Source: a virus. Taken from it: DNA of 43,083 nt. The notes beneath the pieces are model-generated. The model saw only the letters and a list, made by a program, of their open reading frames with translations, was not told the origin of the DNA and ran no database searches. Shown one piece after another: positions 5,339 to 43,083 of this stretch. Numbering within the stretch: the stretch's first letter is position 1; each line of letters starts with the position of its first letter. The stretch lies in IMG/VR virus record IMGVR_UViG_3300037115_000025, positions 1 through 43,083 of that record. One strand, 5' to 3'. A program made the translations under genes and the position numbers.

Positions 5339-5946
5339 CGCACAGCGGGGACCGCTCACTATTCCCATATGGACTCGAACGGCACAGAAGACAATTATTC
5401 CCCACTTGCCGATTAAATCATTCTCGCTCGCCTTGACGTTCGTACACGTTTGCTCACTTGGATTATTCCCGATGTATCGAAGCCTTTTACTCCTCTTTGC
5501 TCTTTCGATATTCGCCTATCAAAGAGCAGGCGCATATAAACCGTTCTACACGCGGGATTGGACGCAACAGGGACCGATAGACGGCCATTGACTGTCATGG
5601 GGACCGATATAGGCCGATAATGGGCAAATACAGGCATTTACAGGGGATACGGGGCAGGATAGCGGTATAGCGCCGATAATGCTCACCGCTAATTGCGTAG
5701 ATAAGAGGATAAGGTTACCATAACGGTACTAAATGGTCGATATTGTTACCATAGTTGGCCTATAGTTGGCACAGCAATTGCTTGACTAGTTGTCCACATA
5801 TCGACCACCGCTCAAACGCAGTGACGGCTTTGGTCTCTGTGGTTTGGGGTAGTCTAAAATCGAATGTAACAAAGTGTACAAATAATAAAATAGAAAAATT
5901 TACGGAAATTTCGGAAAGCGCAGAATAATGAGCGCAGAATAAATAT

Positions 5947-6678
5947 TTAGTCGAATAAGGATTTTTGCGCTGGGTTATTTTTGCGAGGTTTTGATTTTGG
6001 TTTTGGGGACATGATTTCGATAATACGGGCGCGTTCTTCTGAATTACTGCCATTTGATTTCCAAGTATTTGCGGCCATGGAGGCGACCCACACGTTATCG
6101 GAGACATAACCGAGAGCGGGGACTTTTTTATCGACAGATGCCCAGCAGCGGCGATCTGGTCCTTGTTTGTAGTCGAGGCGAATATTTGGGAATATGGGGC
6201 AAAAAATCGGGAGAGCGCCGGTATTTGGGTCGTAGATGTCGGCTGGCTTCATGCCATGGGGCAAGCCTTTTTCGCGGGCGCGTTTATTGCAGCGGTCGGC
6301 GGCTTTCTTTTCCCATGGTCTATTGCGCATATTTTCGCGTTTTCTTTCACGGTCTTGTTCTTTATGCTCGGAACGCCATTTACGATCTCTGGCGCGGAAC
6401 TCCTCTAAATTATCGGCGCGGTGTTTTCTTTGTTGCTCGTTGACTATATCCCTATTCGCCTTTTTCCAGTCAGCAACTTTAGCGATTGAATAGTCTTTGT
6501 TTTTCTCATACCACTCTGTTTGCCTTTTGTGTGTGCAGTCTTTGCAGCAATAATCGCGGCCACTGGGTTTTGATTTGTTCTTGGCAAAATTGATTAGCGG
6601 CTGAGGGATTTTGCACTGTGGGCAAATGTAAACTCCCCATTCGATATGGCTCGGGTCGCTCCAAAGATTTTCCTGCAT
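5947..6678 (-). CDS. Zinc-ribbon/HNH-like endonuclease
   Basis: A 243-residue protein. I start at ATG 6678 (MQENLWSDPSH), 6 nt after GGAG; the frame runs on to 7368, but that part is the shadow of plus-strand genes. Near residues 20-50 are CPQC and CCKDC, a zinc ribbon. A long basic helical region follows (KKANRDIVNEQQRKH onwards). The C-terminal part holds CPIFPNIRLDY, SVDKKVPALGYVSDNVWV and ANTWKSNGS, which fits the HNH-like phage endonucleases with a CP..G..L...SVDRI..KGY..GNV..IS..AN..K pattern. The usual catalytic His is not obvious. It may be a free-standing homing or DNA-processing nuclease. Confidence 0.7.
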   Translation of the reverse strand: MQENLWSDPSHIEWGVYICPQCKIPQPLINFAKNKSKPSGRDYCCKDCTHKRQTEWYEKNKDYSIAKVADWKKANRDIVNEQQRKHRADNLEEFRARDRKWRSEHKEQDRERKRENMRNRPWEKKAADRCNKRAREKGLPHGMKPADIYDPNTGALPIFCPIFPNIRLDYKQGPDRRCWASVDKKVPALGYVSDNVWVASMAANTWKSNGSNSEERARIIEIMSPKPKSKPRKNNPAQKSLFD

Positions 6679-26902: not shown

Positions 26903-27004
26903 ATGGCAAAGCATCGCGTAGGTGGAAAGAAAGCACACGTCAAGAAGGTCGGTCGGAAGCGCGGCGGCAAGCGCCACAGCAAGAAGAGTGTTGTAAAGGC
27001 GTAG
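26903..27004 (+). CDS. Tiny Lys/Arg-rich protein (33 residues)
   Basis: GGAG sits 8 nt before ATG 26903. The product starts MAKHRVGGKKAHVKKVG and ends HSKKSVVKA, with more than 40 percent Lys, Arg and His and no acidic residue. It is the first gene of the scaffold/capsid unit. Its HRVGGKK recalls the KRVAGK motif of the basic genes at 31358-32240. It may bind DNA or the capsid interior; no homologue is known to me. Confidence 0.65.
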   Translation: MAKHRVGGKKAHVKKVGRKRGGKRHSKKSVVKA

Positions 27005-27028
27005 TTTTAACCACGAAGGAGAACTAAC

Positions 27029-27328
27029 GTGGCGACTTCGCCCATGCCAACACCCGATCCAAGCGCAGGCGGGCCATCACAAGGTGGCCCCGGCGCACCA
27101 CCCCCACCGCAGGGCGGGGGTCAGCAAGGCCCTCCCTCCCAACAACCAGCGAACCAAATCCAAAGTCTTTTAGGAAGCTGGTCCAACGTCGCCCAGCAAA
27201 TCTCGCAGGCGTATCCACAAATTGCGTCACAAATGAACAAAATCGTGCAAGCGATAGGAGAGGCACAGACGGCAATGGTTACGCCATCTCAGCCCACTCC
27301 AACCTCGCAGCAACCACAAGTAGGTTAA
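27029..27328 (+). CDS. Pro/Gly/Gln-rich small structural-type protein
   Basis: AAGGAG lies before GTG 27029. Residues 1-42 are nearly all Pro, Gly, Gln, Ser and Ala; residues 43-82 form a helical core (QIQSLLGSWSNVAQQIS onwards); the tail is again Pro/Gln-rich. Proteins of this kind occur beside scaffolds in podovirus-like phages, role unknown. It is 24 nt after the tiny basic gene. Confidence 0.55.
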   Translation: MATSPMPTPDPSAGGPSQGGPGAPPPPQGGGQQGPPSQQPANQIQSLLGSWSNVAQQISQAYPQIASQMNKIVQAIGEAQTAMVTPSQPTPTSQQPQVG

Positions 27329-27357
27329 CAAACACAAATCCGGGAGGATAGTGAACC

Positions 27358-28344
27358 ATGATTACTTTAGCCGAAGTATTACTAGCGAGCGGATGGACCC
27401 AAGAGATGATCGACGCTCTTGACGCGAAGGCCAGAACTGGTCTCACAGATTACGTGACGGGTATCGAACAGACCGCCGCACAGAAAGAAAAAGCAGCATC
27501 GGAATTAGCGGTAAAGGCTGAAGCGGATAGGAAAGCGCAGGAAGAGGCTTTAGTAGAAGCCAATAAAGCGAAAGCAGCAGCCGAAGCCGCCGAGAGAGGT
27601 TGGGCGGATTTTCGGGATAATACCTACAATCCTGGTCTGGCTGCATGGGAAGAAGAGCGGAAGAAGTTAGCCAAGGCCGCAACAGACGCAGCAGCGGAAG
27701 CGGCGTGGTACAAGACACAGCATTCCTCACTGAAAGATTTGGGATTTGTACCAGCGGATGCTCCCGTATTTACTCCTGCACCACTCCCTGTCGTAGACCC
27801 AAACAAGACTCCCGGCACACCGACCTTCACAATCAATGAAGTACGCGACCAGCTAGGAAATTCTCTTGGAACCGTCGCAAATATTCAGTGGGAATACAGA
27901 AATCTGTATGGCAGGGAAATGCCGATCTCTCCCACAGAACTACTTCGTCAGGCCGAAGCCAACAAGTATAAGGACCCCGCGACCTACGCAAATTCGATTT
28001 TCAAGTTTTCGGAGAAGCGTGAGGAAATTCGTCAAGCCGAAGCAAAGGCTCATGACGATGCGATTGCAGCAGCAGCCGTCGCCGCTAAGGACGAATCGCA
28101 CAAGTTGGAACTCAAGAAGATTCAGGATGAGTTTTCAGCCAAGGAAAGATTGAGAGCGGAGCAGGCTGGAAGCAATCCAGACACAAAGCTGCCTCCGGGT
28201 TCATCGAAGTTCTCTGATTTGCGGAGAGCGCAGCAAGCGGGTGAGCGCAAGGACCCAACAAAGATGACTCCACAGGAGCGCAGACAGACTTCTCTGGACA
28301 ACATTCACAAGGCTTTGGAAGAGCGTCAAGCAGTAGTAGCGTAA
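27358..28344 (+). CDS. Probable scaffolding protein
   Basis: A 328-residue, Ala/Glu/Lys-rich protein from ATG 27358 (GGGAGGATAG upstream). It contains a long coiled coil at about 35-85 (QKEKAASELAVKAEADRK onwards), a Pro-rich bend near 135-160, a second helical part with NIQWEYRNLYGREMP, and a basic C terminus with MTPQERRQTSLD. Composition and place directly before the major capsid gene are those of capsid scaffolds, which nucleate the procapsid and then leave. No protease gene is visible nearby. Confidence 0.7.
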   Translation: MITLAEVLLASGWTQEMIDALDAKARTGLTDYVTGIEQTAAQKEKAASELAVKAEADRKAQEEALVEANKAKAAAEAAERGWADFRDNTYNPGLAAWEEERKKLAKAATDAAAEAAWYKTQHSSLKDLGFVPADAPVFTPAPLPVVDPNKTPGTPTFTINEVRDQLGNSLGTVANIQWEYRNLYGREMPISPTELLRQAEANKYKDPATYANSIFKFSEKREEIRQAEAKAHDDAIAAAAVAAKDESHKLELKKIQDEFSAKERLRAEQAGSNPDTKLPPGSSKFSDLRRAQQAGERKDPTKMTPQERRQTSLDNIHKALEERQAVVA

Positions 28345-28385
28345 GCAAGATTCAGAAAACAGCTTAATTGCTGAAAGGAAACGAC

Positions 28386-29675
28386 ATGCCGATCACACCA
28401 ACAGACCCAAGTTTTGGCGAAATTGACAGCACAAATTTAGAGTCGGTACGTAAAGAGGTAGTTTGGAACTGCTTCTTTGTGGGCACTCCCTTCCTTGAGG
28501 AGTTGCGCCGTTCCGGTGTAGCCGATCCTTACCTTGGTGGCGCAGGCATGACGGAAGTCTTCCTGTACGGTCGTCCGCAGGGCGCTGGTGTCAACCCTGG
28601 ACAAACGATTACCGTGACCCGTCAGCAGATCACAGACAAGCTGAAGTTCTACGAGAAGGGATATGCTTCTTGGTTCCCGATGGACGACTGGGAAATGGAC
28701 GACGGCTCTGGCACGGGTGGTGTGATTAACTCTGGTCCTGCCCGCATCTGCGACATCTACGCAATCTTCATGGAAGCGTTGGTGATGCAGATCAACACGA
28801 TGCTGGAGATGGACTCGTTCCGTCACGGACAGCAAGCGTCTGCAACCGTTCAGGACAACCGTTACAAGGTATCGAACGGCTTGGACGAAGCGTTGAATAA
28901 CGGCATTGACACATCGCTCTATGGCAACATCTACAAGAGCTACGGCCAACAATTGAGGAATGGCGCGGTAGGTGCTTCGATCAACGTCACTCCGCTTTAT
29001 CTTGGCCAGCAGGTAACTACCGGAACCACAGCAGCCCCTGCAACGTCAGGACCGGGCCAGATCAACTTCGGTTCTTTGATGCAACTCTGGTCGCAGTGCA
29101 AAATCACTGGCGGAAGGCCGAAGTTGGGCATCACGAACGTGTTTGGATTCAAGGCAATCGCAATTGCTCTTGATGCTTACCGCAGAGACATCTCGAACAC
29201 GAAGCACGACATTACATGGGATGCTCTGGAATTCAACGGTACGCAGATTTACTCCGATCCTCTGGCTCCTTCAGCGGTTGCACAGTATTACATTCCGCTT
29301 TCTGGAAACCCTGGAGCATCAGGAGCATCGGGCAACACATCGCTGGTGGACGGCGTTGGAAAGACCACAACGACGATTGCCTACACGACTCCACAGTTCT
29401 ACAACTCCAGCAGCGCAGCGGTTACGCTGTCGCCAACGAACTCCGGTTTGCCGTCGAACGCAATCATTCAGCCAGCGGAAGCGATTTATTTCCTAACGCC
29501 TGAGACGTTCAAGTTGCGTACCACAGACAAGCCTGGATGGAACTTCGGAGTTCGCAGGACGAGTCAATGGAACAACGTGAGCGTGGACACGATCTTCATG
29601 CGCTTGGCAACGAACCTATATTGCTGCCAGCCAAGGCAAAATTCGATGGCATTTGGATTTACCTCAATCGGTTAA
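28386..29675 (+). CDS. Major capsid protein
   Basis: A 429-residue protein with AAAGGA 6 nt before ATG 28386 (an in-frame TTG lies at 28368). It follows the scaffold and precedes decoration-like genes. The N terminus (MPITPTDPSFGEIDSTN) leads to a long-helix region (ICDIYAIFMEALVMQINTM), a central domain, and late strands with WNFGVRRTSQWNNVSVDTIF, as in HK97-fold shells. I take it to be the main shell protein by position, size and fold pattern. The Cys pair CC near the end is unusual. Confidence 0.8.
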   Translation: MPITPTDPSFGEIDSTNLESVRKEVVWNCFFVGTPFLEELRRSGVADPYLGGAGMTEVFLYGRPQGAGVNPGQTITVTRQQITDKLKFYEKGYASWFPMDDWEMDDGSGTGGVINSGPARICDIYAIFMEALVMQINTMLEMDSFRHGQQASATVQDNRYKVSNGLDEALNNGIDTSLYGNIYKSYGQQLRNGAVGASINVTPLYLGQQVTTGTTAAPATSGPGQINFGSLMQLWSQCKITGGRPKLGITNVFGFKAIAIALDAYRRDISNTKHDITWDALEFNGTQIYSDPLAPSAVAQYYIPLSGNPGASGASGNTSLVDGVGKTTTTIAYTTPQFYNSSSAAVTLSPTNSGLPSNAIIQPAEAIYFLTPETFKLRTTDKPGWNFGVRRTSQWNNVSVDTIFMRLATNLYCCQPRQNSMAFGFTSIG

Positions 29676-29738
29676 TGCCTAGCGAAGCAGTTTGTTTGAG
29701 AGAACAAGGAAAAAACGAAGTAGTTAAGGAGATTTAAG

Positions 29739-30605
29739 ATGCCATACCAAGCAGCACTGCCAACATGGTTGGCCCTCAATAATGTGAACTCGCCATATCC
29801 GTCAGGTCAGGGCGACTCGGTAACCGGCTTTCCCTATATGGCTGGCGGGTTGAATCAAGGCGACTACTTCGACTTGACGAATGACGAAGCTGCTGGTGCA
29901 TCCTACCCGACCAACGGCCTTCTATTTAGCGGTCGCTATCGGTATGTGCAGGTTGACTCTGGCGCAACTGCTGCCTATGTGAAGACTGGCACGGTTGGCT
30001 ACATCCGCGCAGGATCAACGGTCGCGTCTGTGGTTGTTTTGACACAAGGCAGCGGTCAGACTGTAGGCACCTATCAGGTTGCGGCAACAGTCGGAAGCGG
30101 CGGAGGGTCTGGAGCGATCATTCAGGTTATAGTGACCTCCGCGACTGCAATTACCGTCTCGGTGGTCAACGGCGGGTTCGGATATGTTTCTCCTCCGACA
30201 TTCACATTGGCAACTGGCGGAACTCCGGGAACAGTTGTAGCGCAGTTGGCTGGACCATCAATGAATGTGGTTACCAGTGCCGATATTGCGATTGGAACAG
30301 CATCTCTCGCGAACGCAGGTATCGGACCAGTTCATCCGGTAGTATTCTTGAATTCGATCACGCCCGGTAACAATGGATTCATTCAAGAACTTGGCGTTGC
30401 TACGGTTTTGGCAGGATCGACATTCACTCAGGCTCAGGGATATAACGCTGTTCCTGTGAGTGGTGCTTCTGCTAACGGAACAATGACAACGGCGGTAAAC
30501 ACTTACACCACCTATTCAATCGGTACTGTCATTGATCCACTGACCACACCATTGGCAAACACGCCGTTCAAGATTCTGCTTAATGGTCCAGTGGTTCAAG
30601 ACTAA
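29739..30605 (+). CDS. Decoration/structural protein with inserted Gly-rich beta domain
   Basis: A 288-residue protein; TTAAGGAG precedes ATG 29739. The N terminus (MPYQAALPTWLALNNVNSP) and C terminus look like a virion protein. The middle (about 95-168) is a Gly/Val/Thr-rich domain with VVVLTQGSGQTVGTYQV and GGFGYVSPPTFTLATGG. The G-x-G-Y-x-x-PP-x-x-x-x-x-GG pattern is repeated in the connector-like protein (33662). It probably sits on the head surface; function in binding is inference. Confidence 0.65.
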   Translation: MPYQAALPTWLALNNVNSPYPSGQGDSVTGFPYMAGGLNQGDYFDLTNDEAAGASYPTNGLLFSGRYRYVQVDSGATAAYVKTGTVGYIRAGSTVASVVVLTQGSGQTVGTYQVAATVGSGGGSGAIIQVIVTSATAITVSVVNGGFGYVSPPTFTLATGGTPGTVVAQLAGPSMNVVTSADIAIGTASLANAGIGPVHPVVFLNSITPGNNGFIQELGVATVLAGSTFTQAQGYNAVPVSGASANGTMTTAVNTYTTYSIGTVIDPLTTPLANTPFKILLNGPVVQD

Positions 30606-30662
30606 TCACGGTTGGGGTGGGTAGGAATATCCACCCCACAGTTTTCTCAACAAGGAGCGGCA

Positions 30663-31013
30663 ATGATTCTTACGACCTTAACTCCGGTGAAGTATCCAAT
30701 CCACACTGGAAACCGTCAGGTGTTTGTTGGATACGGCAATGCTCCTGCTGCTGGTTACAACTCGACAACTGGCGACATAATTTCGGTAGCCTTCACACCT
30801 TTTTTCATTGATGCGGTGTTGGGAGTAGCGGTGACAACGGACGGAACTTACATCGGTATTCCTGCACCGACTACGGGCGTAGGAAACGCGCAGACATGGG
30901 CGCTGTTCTGGTACACCTTCTCTTTCACGGGAACACCTGGATGGGTTCCTTTGTCGAGTGCTGTCAGTATTGCGACGAAGCAAGTGCAGTTGACAGTGAT
31001 TGGCGGGGCTTAA
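30663..31013 (+). CDS. Small beta-rich structural protein
   Basis: AGGAG lies 5 nt before ATG 30663. The 116-residue product starts MILTTLTPVKYPIHTGN and is rich in Gly, Thr, Val and aromatic residues, a composition usual for beta-sandwich head or tail decoration proteins. It stands directly before a good terminator. No domain is recognised. Confidence 0.6.
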   Translation: MILTTLTPVKYPIHTGNRQVFVGYGNAPAAGYNSTTGDIISVAFTPFFIDAVLGVAVTTDGTYIGIPAPTTGVGNAQTWALFWYTFSFTGTPGWVPLSSAVSIATKQVQLTVIGGA

Positions 31014-31067
31014 CGAGTTTCAACACAAAGTCTGTCTCTCCCTCTCCCGGTGATTGCAGACAATTAG

Positions 31068-31111
31068 ACGCCCTCTGTAGCCCCGGAAGGGTCAACTATG
31101 GAGGGCGTTTT
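31068..31111 (+). terminator. Intrinsic terminator
   Basis: ACGCCCTC (31068-31075) pairs with GAGGGCGT (31101-31108) around a 25-nt loop that may itself fold; a TTTT run follows at 31108-31111. It ends the capsid unit. The basic-protein cluster begins 40 nt downstream. Confidence 0.65.
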
Positions 31112-31150
31112 AACAGAGGGTGAAGTTCAAAAACGCAAAGGAGAACTGAA

Positions 31151-31312
31151 ATGATTAAGGGAATTGGAAAAGCAAAGATTCACTCGGCAGCAGCACCACG
31201 GAACCGTAAGCACACGGTAGCGGCCAACCATCACGTCAAGGGCCATAGCACGATTCACGTCCACAAGGGCGGCAAGGGAAAGAAGCATTCAAAGCGCACC
31301 ATCCTCAAGTAA
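31151..31312 (+). CDS. His/Lys-rich small basic protein (53 residues)
   Basis: AAAGGAGAACTGAA precedes ATG 31151. The product starts MIKGIGKAKIHSAAAPR, has repeated His (NHHVKGHSTIHVHKGG) and ends KKHSKRTILK, with almost no acidic residue. It is the first of a run of basic small genes. Nucleic-acid binding is likely from composition; no known family. Confidence 0.65.
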   Translation: MIKGIGKAKIHSAAAPRNRKHTVAANHHVKGHSTIHVHKGGKGKKHSKRTILK

Positions 31313-31357
31313 CTGAATGTGTCGTAACGGATGTTCAACAGGAAGAAAGGAATCCCC

Positions 31358-31462
31358 ATGTCTAAGAAGAAGAAGATTGCAGCGAAAACAAATCCATTGT
31401 TATCGGAAAAGATACCCTCCAACAAAAAGAAGGGCGCAAGGAAGCGCGTAGCCGGAAAGTAG
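31358..31462 (+). CDS. Tiny Lys-rich protein ending in KRVAGK (34 residues)
   Basis: AAAGGA lies 6 nt before ATG 31358; an in-frame ATG at 31331 would add nine residues but has no ribosome site. The product starts MSKKKKIAAKTNPLLSEK and ends KKKGARKRVAGK. The C-terminal KRVAGK also ends the products of 31623-31820 and 31827-32240, using different codons each time, so the peptide itself appears to be selected. Confidence 0.65.
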   Translation: MSKKKKIAAKTNPLLSEKIPSNKKKGARKRVAGK

Positions 31463-31468
31463 GACAAC

Positions 31469-31648
31469 ATGGCGACCAATGAATACAACAACTCAGGTGG
31501 TGGTTCTGCGGCTAAGATAACGCCAACTAATTATGTGGTTGGCGGAATCAAAGTTTCTGGAGAAATTGACCTCGCTAGGAAGACGAACGAAGAGTTTCCG
31601 AGATACTGGAGGGAAACAAACCGTGTCAACGAAAAAGACGAAAAATAA
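31469..31648 (+). CDS. Unknown 59-residue protein inside the basic cluster
   Basis: ATG 31469 follows the previous stop by 6 nt; its ribosome site is weak (AGTAGGAC). The product starts MATNEYNNSGGGSAAKI and continues KITPTNYVVGGIKVSGE; it is not basic, unlike its neighbours. It overlaps the next gene by 26 nt. Nothing recognised. Confidence 0.55.
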   Translation: MATNEYNNSGGGSAAKITPTNYVVGGIKVSGEIDLARKTNEEFPRYWRETNRVNEKDEK

Positions 31649-31820
31649 GGACATCTACGACGACCACGATGACGCGCACTTTGACGGGAACCCTGCGTAC
31701 AAGCCTCATCATGCGAGGAAACGGGTCGCAGGAAAGAAGCGCGGCGGCGTACATAAGCAGGGCATGAGCACAGTGGGCGGCAAGAAGCGGCCAGTGAAGA
31801 AGAGAGTAGCGGGGAAGTAG
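31623..31820 (+). CDS. Basic protein with two RVAGK motifs (65 residues)
   Basis: GTG 31623 follows GGAGG by 10 nt, inside the end of the preceding gene. The product starts MSTKKTKNKDIYDDHDD, has an internal HARKRVAGKKRGG and ends PVKKRVAGK. It carries both an acidic patch and a strongly basic remainder. The repeated motif and its neighbours suggest a family of DNA- or capsid-binding peptides. Confidence 0.6.
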   Translation: MSTKKTKNKDIYDDHDDAHFDGNPAYKPHHARKRVAGKKRGGVHKQGMSTVGGKKRPVKKRVAGK

Positions 31821-31826
31821 GTTCCT

Positions 31827-32240
31827 ATGGCGAATAAAAAGAAAACGATGTCAGAGGCTCAATGGGATCGCAAGGTAAGAGGAGAAAAGTATCCCGGATA
31901 CGACAACAGTTTCTTGAAAGATAAGCCAAAAGGATTAAGTGACAACGAGGTTCTGTATCGCGGCGCTACAGACCGTTGGAAGAAAGGCAAGTATCGCAAG
32001 CAGGCAGAGGCAAAAGAAGCTAAGGAACACAAACAGTACGACAAAGACAAAAGAGACAATGGTCCAGTAAAGCGCGGAGATGGGCCGACCGAAGGATCAA
32101 AAGAGGAGTACGTTCGGCGCAATCAGGTTGAAGCGAAGTTGGCCGCACGAAAGCGCGTAGGCGGCTCGGCAAAGGCCGCAGGAACAAAAACAAAGACAGC
32201 AAGCAAGAAAACTACTCGCAAGAGAGTAGCAGGTAAGTAG
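31827..32240 (+). CDS. Basic helical protein ending in KRVAGK (137 residues)
   Basis: ATG 31827 follows AGTAGG by 5 nt. The product starts MANKKKTMSEAQWDRKV; a helical charged centre (YRKQAEAKEAKEHKQYD) leads to an Ala/Lys/Thr tail with RKRVGGSAKAAG and the end TTRKRVAGK. The tail resembles histone H1-like or nucleoid-associated tails by composition. It is the largest member of the KRVAGK cluster and is followed by an antisense homing endonuclease. Confidence 0.65.
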   Translation: MANKKKTMSEAQWDRKVRGEKYPGYDNSFLKDKPKGLSDNEVLYRGATDRWKKGKYRKQAEAKEAKEHKQYDKDKRDNGPVKRGDGPTEGSKEEYVRRNQVEAKLAARKRVGGSAKAAGTKTKTASKKTTRKRVAGK

Positions 32241-32252
32241 GGAGCATGGATG

Positions 32253-33581
32253 TCAATCGTAGTCCGATCTCGGAAAGTTGGTGTGAGCCGAATCTCCACG
32301 GAGTTCGATCATCTTCCTGTCGTATTTCCTAGCCGCTTCCTCAGCGGTTTTGGAAGGCCCAAGTCGGTATACCGTACCCATGTAATGAATAACAGTTTTC
32401 CATCCGTTTTTTCCGCTCTTGGTAATACCTCTAAGTCCAGACCGATTGTTTACTTTGGACGACTGAGCGACGGTCTTATTTTTTTCTTTAGGAGCAGGAC
32501 GCCACAGTGTTTGTTCGTAATAAGCACGGGGAAAATTGGTGTAGGCGTTGGGACCACGATGCTGGATCACCCATTGGTCGTAGGCGTGCGCGGCTTCGAT
32601 CTTATCGCTGAAGTATCCAAGACAGACATTCTTCCCATCAATGGCAATAGTTGCCGTCCATCTCTTCACCCTACCGGGTCGGTTATTGAAACAAACTCCC
32701 CTATATCCAGACTTGTTGTTTTTTTGAATTTCGCGTTTTTGGTAATTGCTCGATACATCCTCTCCATAATATCCACGCGGAAAATTCAAACGAAAGGCAT
32801 CGCCAGCCAGTTCGATGGCTTTCTTGTCTCTTGCGTGCGCTGCGTCAATTTCTTCATCGAAATAGCCAACAATAACCGTTTCCCCATCAAAATAAAGATA
32901 GGCTTTCCAACGCCTGTCTTTTTTAGACCACGATACTCCGATAAACCGAGAACTCACGTTGGTACGTTTCTGTCTTTTCCGATTAGTCTTCGAAGCCTTC
33001 TCATGCGTCTCTTTTGTCCAACCGCTGCGATGCGTGTACTTGGCCTTTCTCTCGTCTGGGGAAAGAGTGCTAATAAATGCTTTCAGACCAGTGGACACAT
33101 GTTGCTTAGTTATCTCAGAACGTTTGCGGCCAATCTTACTGAGACTGATCTTTCGACCTGTTTCCGCAGATGGCACGTATCCTTTTCTGGAGGCAAGCAT
33201 CTTTGCAATCGTTTCCGGCTTATGCTTGAATCCTTTTTCAGCCCCATCGCCTCCAGAAGTACCATTTGTAAGCTGCGGGTAGCCGGGGATGTTTCTGTAG
33301 TACGCAATCCATCGACGCTCAGCGTCTTCCCATTCGCATTCCTTGACTTGTTCAAGAAGTATGAGTTCCGGTTTTCTACCAGCATTCAAAAGACTCTTGA
33401 TCCAATTGTTCTTTCGAGTCTTTGGTTTAAGAGACGATGGGTTCATGTGCGCTTGGCGTCTGCGTTTTGGATTGTAGGCTTTGCCAACGTAGCGCACAAA
33501 TTCCGTGATTGGGTCTACGAGGCCGTATATGTAGGCAGTGATAAGATGGTCTTGCGGCTGTTCGGGCGTATGTTTGCTCAT
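32253..33581 (-). CDS. GIY-YIG homing endonuclease with three AP2 domains
   Basis: A 442-residue protein read against its neighbours; AGGAG lies 7 nt before ATG 33581. The N terminus (residues 15-80) has AYIYGLVDP and FVRYVGKAYNPKRR, a GIY-YIG nuclease with the catalytic Arg region. NUMOD-like motifs follow (KPETIAKMLASRKG, SAETGRKISLSKIG). Then come three AP2-type DNA-binding domains at about 210-270, 290-350 and 385-440, each with the GV or GI start, a W strand, YF or YRLG, AAHA or AARKYD and NFPR. Such enzymes spread themselves by cutting cognate sites. The insertion lies between the KRVAGK cluster and the connector gene and breaks neither. Confidence 0.85.
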   Translation of the reverse strand: MSKHTPEQPQDHLITAYIYGLVDPITEFVRYVGKAYNPKRRRQAHMNPSSLKPKTRKNNWIKSLLNAGRKPELILLEQVKECEWEDAERRWIAYYRNIPGYPQLTNGTSGGDGAEKGFKHKPETIAKMLASRKGYVPSAETGRKISLSKIGRKRSEITKQHVSTGLKAFISTLSPDERKAKYTHRSGWTKETHEKASKTNRKRQKRTNVSSRFIGVSWSKKDRRWKAYLYFDGETVIVGYFDEEIDAAHARDKKAIELAGDAFRLNFPRGYYGEDVSSNYQKREIQKNNKSGYRGVCFNNRPGRVKRWTATIAIDGKNVCLGYFSDKIEAAHAYDQWVIQHRGPNAYTNFPRAYYEQTLWRPAPKEKNKTVAQSSKVNNRSGLRGITKSGKNGWKTVIHYMGTVYRLGPSKTAEEAARKYDRKMIELRGDSAHTNFPRSDYD

Positions 33582-35323: not shown

Positions 35324-37162
35324 ATGATGAAAAAAATAGCGATATATCTGTTGTTTATATTCGGGTGCATTGTTGCATCAGCGCAGCAATATCCTCCCTA
35401 TCTTGTGTACACTCTTGTAGGTGGAGTTCCTACGCCAGTACCGGGGTCGGGTTCGGTATTACCGGGAGGACTTCCACCGGGGCTTCTTTGCTACACGCTA
35501 AATACTGGTGGTCAGGCAGTGCCGTGCAATTTTACAAGCTCAGGCACCGTAGGCTCCGGCACAACGGGGCAGATAGCCTACTACCCAGCCAACGGTACAG
35601 CAGTGAGCGGTGAAACCACCGTGCCTATTACGGCGGGCGGCACGGGCGCAACCACAGCAGCAGGGGCGCTGGCGAACCTTGGCGCGGCCCCAGCGTTTAC
35701 TCTGACCACGACAGGCACCAGCGGCCCGGCTACGTACGGTGGGAACGTCATAAACATTCCGCAGTATGCAGGCGGCGGGTCTATGACTTGGCCAGCAGCA
35801 GCGGGTATCATGGTGTACGCAGGTGGAAGCGCCTACGGCACATCGCTCACAGCCCCGGCAGGAGCTATCGTAGGTGCGGGGCAGGCGAACACTTATACGA
35901 CAGGATTGCAAGACTTCTCCAGCGCGACTATGAAACTTCCGGCCAGTTACACTATCGCTGGTCCCTACACGATCACGCAGCCTGCGGCAACAGGCACGCT
36001 GGCACTGACCAGCCAGATCCCGGCCGTAGGCACATGGGGTGCTTTGAACTATCCCTCATGGGCCTCGGGTACTCCATTCGTGAAGATGACGGCGGCAGGC
36101 ACATTTTCCCTAGACACGAATACATATCTCACAGCCAGCGGCCTCTCCGGCATGACGCAGTACGGCCTTGGTGTGGCCGCATCCGCTACGACCATGACTA
36201 GCAGCGTGCAGCCCACGTCGTGGACTACCGGGCATACGTTTGTTCCGGTTTGGCAGCCGAGCGGATCGGCGCTTGCGCCTACTGTAGTGGATGCGAACAC
36301 GCTCGTGGTAAGTTCGGCTACTTCGGCCACGACGGCCACGAATGCAACCAACGTTGCCACTACGACCAAGAGTGACAACACGGAATATTACCTCGGTTTG
36401 TACCCGGCGAACTCTTCATCGAATCAGGCGGCGGTGGTGGTAGGAGCGCACTACAACGCCAGCACCGGGGCGATAACGCTTCCAGCGGGTGCGTCGTTAG
36501 GGACATCGGACACGGGTACGCCAAGGCTTACGGCAAGCTCGAACCTCTGGACCTCCAACGTGGCCTTGTCAGCCCCCGGCTTCACCGGAACAGGCACAAC
36601 TCCAGCGGCGATGAGTTTGGTAGCAGGCTCAGGCAGCATTCCCGCACTCACGGCCAACAGCGCAGGCTTTGCGGCGCCTGCTACGGGCGGCACTGCTTTC
36701 CTGTACAAGCTCCCAGCGACAGCGGCAGCGGGCATCCTGCACGCAGCAGCCCCAGCCTCGAATGATGGCGTGAATGAGTCGGCTCTTACCTCTAGCGCGG
36801 TATCGCTGAGTGCAGACGTGAGTGGAGTACTGCCAGTCGCCAACGGAGGTACAGGATCAGCAGTTGCGGATACGACCTTCACCGTGTCAACCAGTACAAC
36901 CATCAACGCGAACTCCTGCACACCGGCCTCTGGCAGCGGTGGAACCTCGGTGACAATGACAAACCTTACTTCGGCCATGACGCTCGCGATCACGCCCAAC
37001 GCTGATATAACGAACACGACCGGCTGGGGCAATCCAGCGGCAGGCGTTCTCTATGTCACGCTGGCACCGGGATCGGGCGCGTTCACCTATCACGTCTGCA
37101 ACAACACAGCCTCTAACATCACCACCAGCGGGTCAGTGACCTTCAACGTTTCGGCGAGGTAG
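35324..37162 (+). CDS. Fibre-like protein 1 with Sec signal peptide
   Basis: A 612-residue protein starting MMKKIAIYLLFIFGCIVASA; ATG 35327 is a better-spaced start after GGGAGG. The first 20 residues are a classic Sec signal peptide. The remainder is Gly/Thr/Ala-rich and repetitive, with VPITAGGTGATTAAGALANL (about 100), a tail-fibre motif, and a similar LPVANGGTGSAVADT near 505. Segment 77-183 is identical to fibre 2 at the DNA level. Phage fibres normally lack export signals. It may be a membrane-anchored or exported adhesin. Codon use matches neighbours. Confidence 0.75.
   Translation: MMKKIAIYLLFIFGCIVASAQQYPPYLVYTLVGGVPTPVPGSGSVLPGGLPPGLLCYTLNTGGQAVPCNFTSSGTVGSGTTGQIAYYPANGTAVSGETTVPITAGGTGATTAAGALANLGAAPAFTLTTTGTSGPATYGGNVINIPQYAGGGSMTWPAAAGIMVYAGGSAYGTSLTAPAGAIVGAGQANTYTTGLQDFSSATMKLPASYTIAGPYTITQPAATGTLALTSQIPAVGTWGALNYPSWASGTPFVKMTAAGTFSLDTNTYLTASGLSGMTQYGLGVAASATTMTSSVQPTSWTTGHTFVPVWQPSGSALAPTVVDANTLVVSSATSATTATNATNVATTTKSDNTEYYLGLYPANSSSNQAAVVVGAHYNASTGAITLPAGASLGTSDTGTPRLTASSNLWTSNVALSAPGFTGTGTTPAAMSLVAGSGSIPALTANSAGFAAPATGGTAFLYKLPATAAAGILHAAAPASNDGVNESALTSSAVSLSADVSGVLPVANGGTGSAVADTTFTVSTSTTINANSCTPASGSGGTSVTMTNLTSAMTLAITPNADITNTTGWGNPAAGVLYVTLAPGSGAFTYHVCNNTASNITTSGSVTFNVSAR
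35554..35874 (+). repeat. 321-bp perfect direct repeat, copy A
   Basis: This segment, inside fibre 1, is identical base for base to 41620-41940 in fibre 2, 6066 bp away and in the same reading frame. It codes for 107 residues with the GGTGATTAAG motif. Flanking bases differ on both sides. It is a ready substrate for homologous recombination, which would remove the genes between or join the fibre halves. Confidence 0.95.
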
Positions 37163-41221: not shown

Positions 41222-43083
41222 ATGAAAAAGATTCTGCTCCTTCTCGCGCTCTTGTTTCCTATCGCGGCTCATGCTCAGACTGCGGCCTATTCTGGTTTTT
41301 GCGATCAGGGAGCAACGTCGGCTGTAACGTCAGGATTGAGCAGCACGAATAAACTCCAAGGAGTGATCCCATACTGTACCGTCACGGTCTACCTGACGGG
41401 TACGACGACCAAGGCGACGATCTATAAGGATGCGATAAACACGCCGCAGACAAACCCTTACCAAACAACTGTAAATGGGCAGATTACTTTCTTTGCGGCG
41501 ACAGGGGTAGGGTACGACATTGTTAAGTCGGGTGGTATTCCTCCGCTTGTTTATACAAACCCACTAACGGTTACAGATTGGCAATCAGGCATCGGCGGCG
41601 GCGGCGGCGGGACAGTGAACTCCGGCACAACGGGGCAGATAGCCTACTACCCAGCCAACGGTACAGCAGTGAGCGGTGAAACCACCGTGCCTATTACGGC
41701 GGGCGGCACGGGCGCAACCACAGCAGCAGGGGCGCTGGCGAACCTTGGCGCGGCCCCAGCGTTTACTCTGACCACGACAGGCACCAGCGGCCCGGCTACG
41801 TACGGTGGGAACGTCATAAACATTCCGCAGTATGCAGGCGGCGGGTCTATGACTTGGCCAGCAGCAGCGGGTATCATGGTGTACGCAGGTGGAAGCGCCT
41901 ACGGCACATCGCTCACAGCCCCGGCAGGAGCTATCGTAGGCACTACAGACACTCAGACACTCACTAACAAGACGGTGGACGGCGTGACGCCTACCACGAT
42001 GAGCTACCTTGACGCCACCAACAGCATTCAGACGCAACTTAATGGAAAACAGGCCAGCGGGAGCTACGTTGTCCAAACAACCACGGTTAACGGCCACGCA
42101 TTAAGCAGCAACGTCACAGTTTCCGCTTCAGACTTGACCACTGGCACATTGCCTCACGCGCAGTTGCCCACACTGCTTTCCGGCGACATACCAAACAACG
42201 CAGCCAACACCACAGGCAACGCGGCCACAGCTACCAATGTCCCCTACTCTGGCCTTACTGGCACGGTTCCTACTTGGAACCAGAACACAACAGGCACCGC
42301 CGCGAACATCACGGCTACCACCAACTCGACTCTGACGACGCTCTCCGCTTTGTCTCTTCCGTACTCCCAATTGACAGGCGTACCTACGCTCGGAACGTGG
42401 GCAGCGCTCAATTATCCGACGTGGACAACCGGGTCTCCTTTTGTAAAGATGACGGCGGCGGGGACATTTGCGCTGGACACAAATACCTATCTGACTTCCG
42501 CTCCGACCGTGGCCACGACAACCAACCTGCTCTCAGGTGACGGCAGCGGCAACGCAGTAAGCAGTGGCATCGCGGCAAGCAATGTGCCTCTGCTGAATGC
42601 GGCGAATGCGTTTACCGCAATCAACACATTCAGTAATGCCTCGACATATCAAGGTTTGTTCTCAGGATGGGATTCACTGGGCGGGGGCAACTTCCAAAAT
42701 GGAGAGATTGCACTTGGCTCAAATACTATTGCACAGGGCATAATACAATACTACGGCTCTGGGGGTACTACCACTCTTGATTTGGCAAACTCATACGACA
42801 GTGGCGGGGCTGTCACACAGTTCCGCATGAGAACAGCCGGAACGCCGATCACTGTGATGACGCTTTTAGGAAGCGGCAACGTCGGCATCGGGACGACGAG
42901 TCCTGCATATCCACTAGACGTAAACGGAACAGCGCGAACGACCGGTCTGATAGACACAGGGGCGGAGTCAGCATCAGGTACTTATTGCCTGCACATTAAC
43001 ACCGTAGGAGTTATCAGTAACACAGGCTCAGAGTGCGGAACCGGCTCCGGCAGCGGCATGGTGTATCCAAGTGGCAGCGGCAT
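41222..43083 (+). CDS. Fibre-like protein 2 with Sec signal, C-terminal part outside the window
   Basis: ATG 41222 opens a frame that stays open for 620 codons to the window end. Residues 1-19 (MKKILLLLALLFPIAAHAQ) are a Sec signal peptide. After an N-terminal domain (to about 132), residues 134-240 are identical to fibre 1 (VPITAGGTGATTAAGALANL). Then follow TDTQTLTNKTVDGVT, a repeat common in fibres, and near the end GNVGIGTTSPAYPLDVNGT, a signature that usually precedes a peptidase S74 intramolecular chaperone. An auto-cleaving chaperone may therefore lie beyond the window. Confidence 0.8.
   Translation, partial: MKKILLLLALLFPIAAHAQTAAYSGFCDQGATSAVTSGLSSTNKLQGVIPYCTVTVYLTGTTTKATIYKDAINTPQTNPYQTTVNGQITFFAATGVGYDIVKSGGIPPLVYTNPLTVTDWQSGIGGGGGGTVNSGTTGQIAYYPANGTAVSGETTVPITAGGTGATTAAGALANLGAAPAFTLTTTGTSGPATYGGNVINIPQYAGGGSMTWPAAAGIMVYAGGSAYGTSLTAPAGAIVGTTDTQTLTNKTVDGVTPTTMSYLDATNSIQTQLNGKQASGSYVVQTTTVNGHALSSNVTVSASDLTTGTLPHAQLPTLLSGDIPNNAANTTGNAATATNVPYSGLTGTVPTWNQNTTGTAANITATTNSTLTTLSALSLPYSQLTGVPTLGTWAALNYPTWTTGSPFVKMTAAGTFALDTNTYLTSAPTVATTTNLLSGDGSGNAVSSGIAASNVPLLNAANAFTAINTFSNASTYQGLFSGWDSLGGGNFQNGEIALGSNTIAQGIIQYYGSGGTTTLDLANSYDSGGAVTQFRMRTAGTPITVMTLLGSGNVGIGTTSPAYPLDVNGTARTTGLIDTGAESASGTYCLHINTVGVISNTGSECGTGSGSGMVYPSGSG
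41620..41940 (+). repeat. 321-bp perfect direct repeat, copy B
   Basis: Identical to 35554-35874 with no mismatch across 321 bp. After it, the two fibres diverge but still share weaker similarity (for example LNYP and PFVKMTAAGTF segments in both). This pattern suits recent gene conversion or duplication. Confidence 0.95.

Follow-up and report, generated by a model that had tools for sequence, protein, structure and literature searches.

A short basic C-terminal peptide recurs on unrelated small proteins of a soil phage group and may serve in capsid docking

The window, that is the whole stretch of 43,083 bases analysed here, corresponds to the IMG/VR virus record IMGVR_UViG_3300037115_000025 and encodes a terminase, a P22-like portal (PF16510, E 6e-6, slightly below the cut-off) and a major head protein. 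Its head block is arranged in the order portal, the small gene at 26903, a gene in the scaffold position, the gene for the major capsid protein (MCP), two genes for conserved head proteins, a cassette of small genes and a tail gene, with the following features:

26903..27004, + strand: 33-aa Lys/Arg/His-rich protein ending KKSVVKA, between the portal and the scaffold-position gene
27358..28344, + strand: probable scaffolding protein, by its position directly upstream of the MCP
28383..29675, + strand: MCP (phrog_9953 major head protein, E 3.2e-6)
29739..30605, + strand: minor capsid/decoration-like protein, a conserved neighbour
30663..31013, + strand: small conserved protein of the head region, with its start at 30663 chosen by homology; it marks where the cassette begins on the upstream side
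31151..31312, + strand: 53-aa basic His-rich protein ending KKHSKRTILK, a second terminal form
31358..31462, + strand: 34-aa basic protein ending KRVAGK (ATG start, stop TAG)
31469..31648, + strand: 59-aa conserved uncharged cassette gene, untagged, between two tagged genes
31623..31820, + strand: 65-aa protein with terminal KRVAGK followed by TAG (GTG start)
31827..32240, + strand: basic protein of 137 aa, ARKRVGG inside and KRVAGK at the C-terminus, followed by TAG (ATG start)
32253..33581, - strand: GIY-YIG / NUMOD3 / AP2 homing-endonuclease-like gene (Pfam AP2 7e-8, NUMOD3 7e-4, GIY-YIG 1e-3, each just below the curated cut-off)

The cassette genes sit in the head block and have strong ribosome-binding sites. 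None of the window's five basic proteins matched a named family in Pfam or PHROGs (including no match to PF20106, DUF6496), and searches of Pfam and PHROG with the scaffold-position product gave no match either. The uncharged 31469 gene, whose product contains the sequence pieces ..GGGSAAKITPTNYVVGG..SGEIDLARKTNEEFPRYWR, has homologues at 71-98% identity in L003, L004, L012, L013 and L071 (loci and genomes are cited by handles of this type). The endonuclease-like gene is an antisense insertion between the cassette and the tail gene, a neighbour that lies outside the tag system described below; it is missing from L003 and L004, and other insertions are found at that spot in L008, L013, L022 and L071. 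Basic proteins of ~200 aa whose C-termini are of one type (..LKKEQSLKVVEIQKTA or close to it), possibly products of mobile endonuclease genes, are encoded between scaffold and MCP in L013, L018, L023, L043, L072, L073 and L115. Elsewhere in the window, fibre-like genes carry a 300-nt direct repeat (35543-35842 and 41609-41908, 98% identity, 6 kb apart) and a second repeat pair (104 nt, 73%, at 36029 and 42392), the result of either a recent duplication or an assembly effect.

The MCP starts at 28383 or at an upstream TTG (28368) and has the N-terminal arm DPSFGEIDSTNLESVRKE. Two AlphaFold runs produced poor MCP models (mean pLDDT 30 and 49), and a fold search returned non-significant matches (best E 0.15), mostly to HK97-fold coats. 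We therefore built no structural argument on the MCP, and because of the low confidence of the coat models the placement of its N-arm rests on the general HK97 fold.

Searches with the MCP retrieved more than 100 IMG/VR relatives and a contig from the bin of an Acidobacteriaceae MAG. The only isolated phages matching it were the acidobacterial podophages Tunturi 1 and 2 (PMC11924767), at 25% identity, which is also the value for the MCP versus the Tunturi_1 major head protein. On the basis of the binned contig and the Tunturi coat match, the host of this podovirus-like soil group is probably Acidobacteriota. In the window's clade, as in several others, most relatives have between one and four very small Lys/Arg-rich genes separating the head-protein genes from the tail gene; no such gene was detected at this place in many more distant relatives, and Tunturi 1 has no such small-gene cassette. 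The window stops short of a region where relatives hold further tagged genes, and counts of tagged genes are approximate since ORF calling for tiny genes leaned on ribosome-binding-site filters.

An earlier note on this DNA had drawn attention to a family of tiny proteins sharing a terminal KRVAGK. We confirmed that the products of 31358-31462, 31623-31820 and 31827-32240 all end in KRVAGK directly before the stop codon (TAG in each case), so that the window genome holds this ending three times, and that ARKRVAGK and ARKRVGG occur internally in the 31623 and 31827 products, the former of which also has the acidic head DDHDDAHFDGNPAY. The tag is kept in the 31358 homologues of L003, L005, L008, L009, L010 and L014, and the 31827 homologue of L012 likewise ends in KRVAGK. 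The two other basic genes singled out in the note agreed in part: the 26903 product does contain HRVGGKK, and the 31151 product is basic but carries the KKHSKRTILK ending, which takes the forms KKTILK, HKTILK and KKTIVK among its homologues in more than 10 relatives. Homologues of 26903, assigned by position and sequence type, were present in 87 of the 91 loci with upstream DNA, and the near-universal presence of this gene suggests a core virion role; its product fits the broad ending motif [KR][KR]-x-[AVS]-x-K.

The description as a family of tiny proteins did not hold. What recurs is one terminal peptide on many unrelated bodies of up to about 130 aa, with Lys/Arg contents of 19-40%. Among phages sharing the window's MCP, KRVAGK ends 12 bodies that have no mutual similarity once the tags are removed, namely the 31358, 31623 and 31827 families and nine more from relatives (one each in L004, L006, L043, L008, L010, G008 and G001, a DUF6496 protein in G001 and G005, and a phrog_16160 protein in G019). 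These bodies were checked by hand, since the automatic clusters over-split slightly; in tag-stripped BLASTP comparisons only the 31827-L012 and 31358-L009 pairs were related. In a test set of 278 small basic proteins falling into 111 automatic body clusters, the KRVAGK ending occurred in 10 clusters versus none in 300 shuffles of the last 30 residues. A looser ending, [K/R]R[V/I][A/S]x[K/R], was found in 16 clusters (shuffles: mean 0.18, maximum 2) and in none of 1951 other proteins, and the broadest form, [KR][KR]-hydrophobic-[AVSFIM]-x-[KR], occurred in 25 families versus 2.7 expected and takes in the 26903 type (KKSVVKA, KKLAIKA, KKSAIKA). The tag is thus not due to chance. Its C-terminal consensus, [KR][KR]-hydrophobic-[AS]-x-K, has a basic-hydrophobic-basic pattern, of which KRVAGK is one clade's version. 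One or two extra residues are tolerated after the tag (KRVAGKR, -KK, -KG, -KQ), so a free C-terminus is not essential.

At the DNA level the tag is far less uniform. Within the window it is spelled AAGCGCGTAGCCGGAAAG at 31442, AAGAGAGTAGCGGGGAAG at 31800 and AAGAGAGTAGCAGGTAAG at 32220, with the internal copy AAACGGGTCGCAGGAAAG at 31719, and the 31 KRVAGK copies surveyed comprise 27 DNA spellings, which rules out plain duplication of one DNA stretch and upholds the observation that the motif DNA differs. Selection keeps the tag as a peptide and not as DNA. We also considered that the tag is a functionless by-product of recombination, a 3' piece copied between adjoining genes. Indeed, the last ~96 nt of 31623 are common to genes of L008 and L010 (80-90% identity) whose upstream parts are unrelated, and this tag-bearing 3' module was found on three different N-terminal bodies. 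The occurrence of one 3' piece on unrelated bodies indicates that recombination shifts the tag module between bodies, with selection then retaining the peptide. That the tag is a mere relic is highly improbable in view of the many spellings of one peptide and of its retention on 12 bodies and their homologues across large divergence, but never on the 1951 other proteins. As an oddity, in L103 (2569-2964, - strand) and G002 (95905) a body of the form MARKKKETKW..EKALGIR is followed by a stop codon and then by an in-frame KTTRKRVAGK-stop, which may represent a tag severed by the stop codon or a case of readthrough.

Beyond the window, three scans of IMG/VR for KRVAGK-stop returned 25, 9 and 27 stretches. 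The ending recurs in other phages, as the earlier note had proposed to look for, and the real small basic genes among these matches come nearly all from this phage group, the rest being mostly short chance frames. Some tagged bodies of relatives belong to families of unknown function that contain no window protein, DUF6496 (PF20106; E 1e-6 in a G001 relative) and DUF6582 / phrog_16160 (2.8e-17 in relatives); the tag was not found on chromosomal DUF6496 relatives, and a literature search gave no mention of KRVAGK or DUF6496. Three loci outside the MCP group, L083, L094 and L100, all marine, encode a 72-aa Lys-rich protein (MKTQRNELQHLF..NYNKRVAGK) with the same ending; this gene and the cases in L109, L091 and L086/L092 were set aside as unrelated or unexplained single cases. 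In the phage contigs L121, L122 and L123 (~5409-6153), which gave no match to the MCP query, a DDHDDAHFDGNPAF protein of the 31623 type lies beside two small basic proteins and ends in ..GGRKSSKR.

The tag is tied to the capsid block, in line with the expected vicinity to capsid genes, but some tagged genes lie 15-30 kb away from these genes. This distance counts against a function in docking and, like the tolerance of one or two residues after the tag, would fit a peptide that directs its carriers to a target outside the virion, be it a host factor (ribosome, nucleoid or RNA polymerase), protection from proteases or cleavage. Mimicry of a host protein with the same ending was rejected: KR[VI/M]AGK-stop turned up in 5 of 150 Acidobacteriaceae genomes, about as many as in a reversed control, with no gene in common. 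That proteins ending in this way do not exceed background in the host family speaks against mimicry, not against host binding. Internal copies such as that at 31719 do not occur at fixed distances, unlike a processing site, and the basic set is headed by genes located between the portal, scaffold, coat and tail genes. On balance, a target outside the virion is unlikely.

A second sequence link between the small basic proteins and the capsid came from the coat itself. In several relatives, small basic proteins open with the N-terminal arm of the MCP (DPxFxEIDxxNLESVRK). An HMM of 27 MCP arms run against 23,528 ORFs gave non-coat matches in L051 (E 1.3e-5), L164 (4e-5), L040 (1e-4), L231 (1e-3) and L226 (about 3e-3; 2.7e-3), all beginning within residues 1-3; weaker matches in G005/L193 (E 0.12) and G002/L217 (E 2.1) are not significant alone, and further non-coat matches lie at or near chance. 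The arm copies of L051, L164 and L040 share 9-10 of 18 residues with the MCP of their own phage and show many synonymous differences from it, and are therefore not fresh duplications; their genes sit at the place in the cassette where the window has its tagged genes. L051 consists of the MCP arm and a body of the 31623 type, with 55% identity to the counterpart in L060/L164 (E 7e-19) and 34% to 31623 as it occurs in L003 (E 2e-6 for this one comparison). L226 and L231 start with the arm and finish with residues resembling the tag (RRKIVTKR, RKRIAVKR), and in L193 the arm is immediately followed by KRVAGK. In the coat arm, residues D8, D15 and E20 vary little or not at all. The window's own small proteins have no arm copy, and the arm link runs through their homologues, which counts against docking.

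Unrelated bodies of one genome have endings that resemble each other more than those of different genomes do: the mean within-genome tag similarity was 20.6 versus 18.35 (SD 0.68; p 0.0005) when genome labels were permuted inside each family, a statistic that ignores phylogeny. For example, the L016 group has KKVAVKK and KKYAVKK, L064 has RKRVSK and SKRVPK, and G001 has KRVAGK, KRTAGK and KRVASK. Such likeness would be expected if the tag tracks a partner encoded by the same phage; shared descent contributes as well, and the permutation does not tell one from the other.

These forms bear on the possibility that the tag is simply a nucleic-acid-binding tail without a capsid receptor, by which DNA is condensed or neutralised in the manner of protamines or adenovirus core proteins, or by which replicating DNA is coated. 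Every tagged protein is rich in Lys/Arg, the near-universal 26903-type protein is almost a pure basic peptide, and the internal head proteins of T4 touch DNA via lysine (PMC3012670). Condensation, however, needs charge and not residue order, whereas the tag has V, A and G at invariable positions. Moreover, proteins of this class carry copies of the coat arm, which points to protein docking, and the clade forms common to unrelated bodies of one genome suggest a co-evolving protein partner. We regard a pure nucleic-acid tail as a doubtful explanation, albeit one with an appreciable chance of being correct. Of the functions offered by the earlier note, a docking tag thus gained independent support from the coat-arm copies, and a cleavage tag and pure DNA condensation fared less well.

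We favour, with a probability of about one half, the reading that both end-pieces, the C-terminal tag as well as the arm copy, are peptides for docking on the capsid, by which a varied set of small proteins that contact DNA is brought into the procapsid. The basic C-terminal hook would attach to the coat on its inner side, perhaps at the acidic N-arm, much as scaffold C-termini attach to coat N-arms in P22 and 80alpha, and the arm copy would make the contacts that a coat subunit makes. Tagged bodies would be loaded into the procapsid ahead of DNA packaging, would then sit among the packaged DNA with their lysines on the phosphates, and could possibly be ejected into the host; binding, incorporation and injection of the tagged proteins are steps that we infer. 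If only the label matters for loading, the bodies would be freely exchangeable, which would explain the variable cassette.

Docking of this type would resemble the capsid-targeting sequence (CTS) of T4 or the RIIK hook of 80alpha/SaPI1, with a new sequence. The T4 signal is N-terminal and cleaved. Like the T4 proteins IPI, IPII, IPIII and Alt with their CTS, the tagged proteins are diverse, exchangeable and small, share one short terminal peptide and are encoded with head genes. However, the T4 signal targets the scaffolding core, whereas the tag is C-terminal, basic and unrelated in sequence; only the separate coat-arm copy has the N-terminal position of the T4 signal. Among the annotations of the head block, none points to a prohead protease. 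The diverse internal proteins of T4 share only this short targeting sequence, and their lysines contact the packaged DNA (PMC3012670). In P22, R293/K296 of the scaffold gp8 bind D14/E15/E18 in the N-arm of the gp5 coat (PMC9965877), and the 80alpha scaffold and SaPI1 CpmB share a coat-binding C-terminal hook, RIIK (PMC5644958). The tag is similar to the RIIK hook and to the RKLK region of gp8 in being a short C-terminal basic/hydrophobic peptide common to otherwise different proteins. Those hooks dock on the inner coat with the N-arm as partner, whereas coat docking by KRVAGK is putative, and KRVAGK differs in sequence, is found on a dozen non-scaffold bodies and is absent from the phage's own probable scaffold. 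In a comparison across relatives, the C-termini of the scaffold-position proteins (..ERRQTSLDNIHKALEERQAVVA in the window) do not correspond to the KRVAGK tag, which counts against docking and led us to reject the idea that the tag was taken from the phage's own scaffold.

Encapsulins, which have an HK97-fold shell, offer another case of a C-terminal peptide common to unrelated cargo. These peptides are mostly hydrophobic and Leu/Gly-rich, operate in cellular nanocompartments and, compared by eye, show no sequence likeness to KRVAGK.

More tentatively, and with a clearly smaller chance of being right than docking as such, hook and coat N-arm copy might constitute a two-part genome-wide loading code, used singly or together on at least a dozen exchangeable small proteins, among them members of the widespread phage families DUF6496 and phrog_16160. 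Hook and arm may then be mutual partners, and proteins bearing both could chain inside the head.

Phages encode many tiny Lys-rich proteins that bear no annotation beyond DUF or hypothetical, and a body-independent label combined with coat-arm mimicry provides a first sequence-level hint of where some of them are destined, an idea that can be tested by fusing the six residues to a reporter. Should the tag prove to direct loading into capsids, this phage group, abundant in metagenomes from peat and soil and hardly cultured, would have a short equivalent of the T4 targeting sequence at the C-terminus, which would also be a compact handle for loading cargo into capsids.
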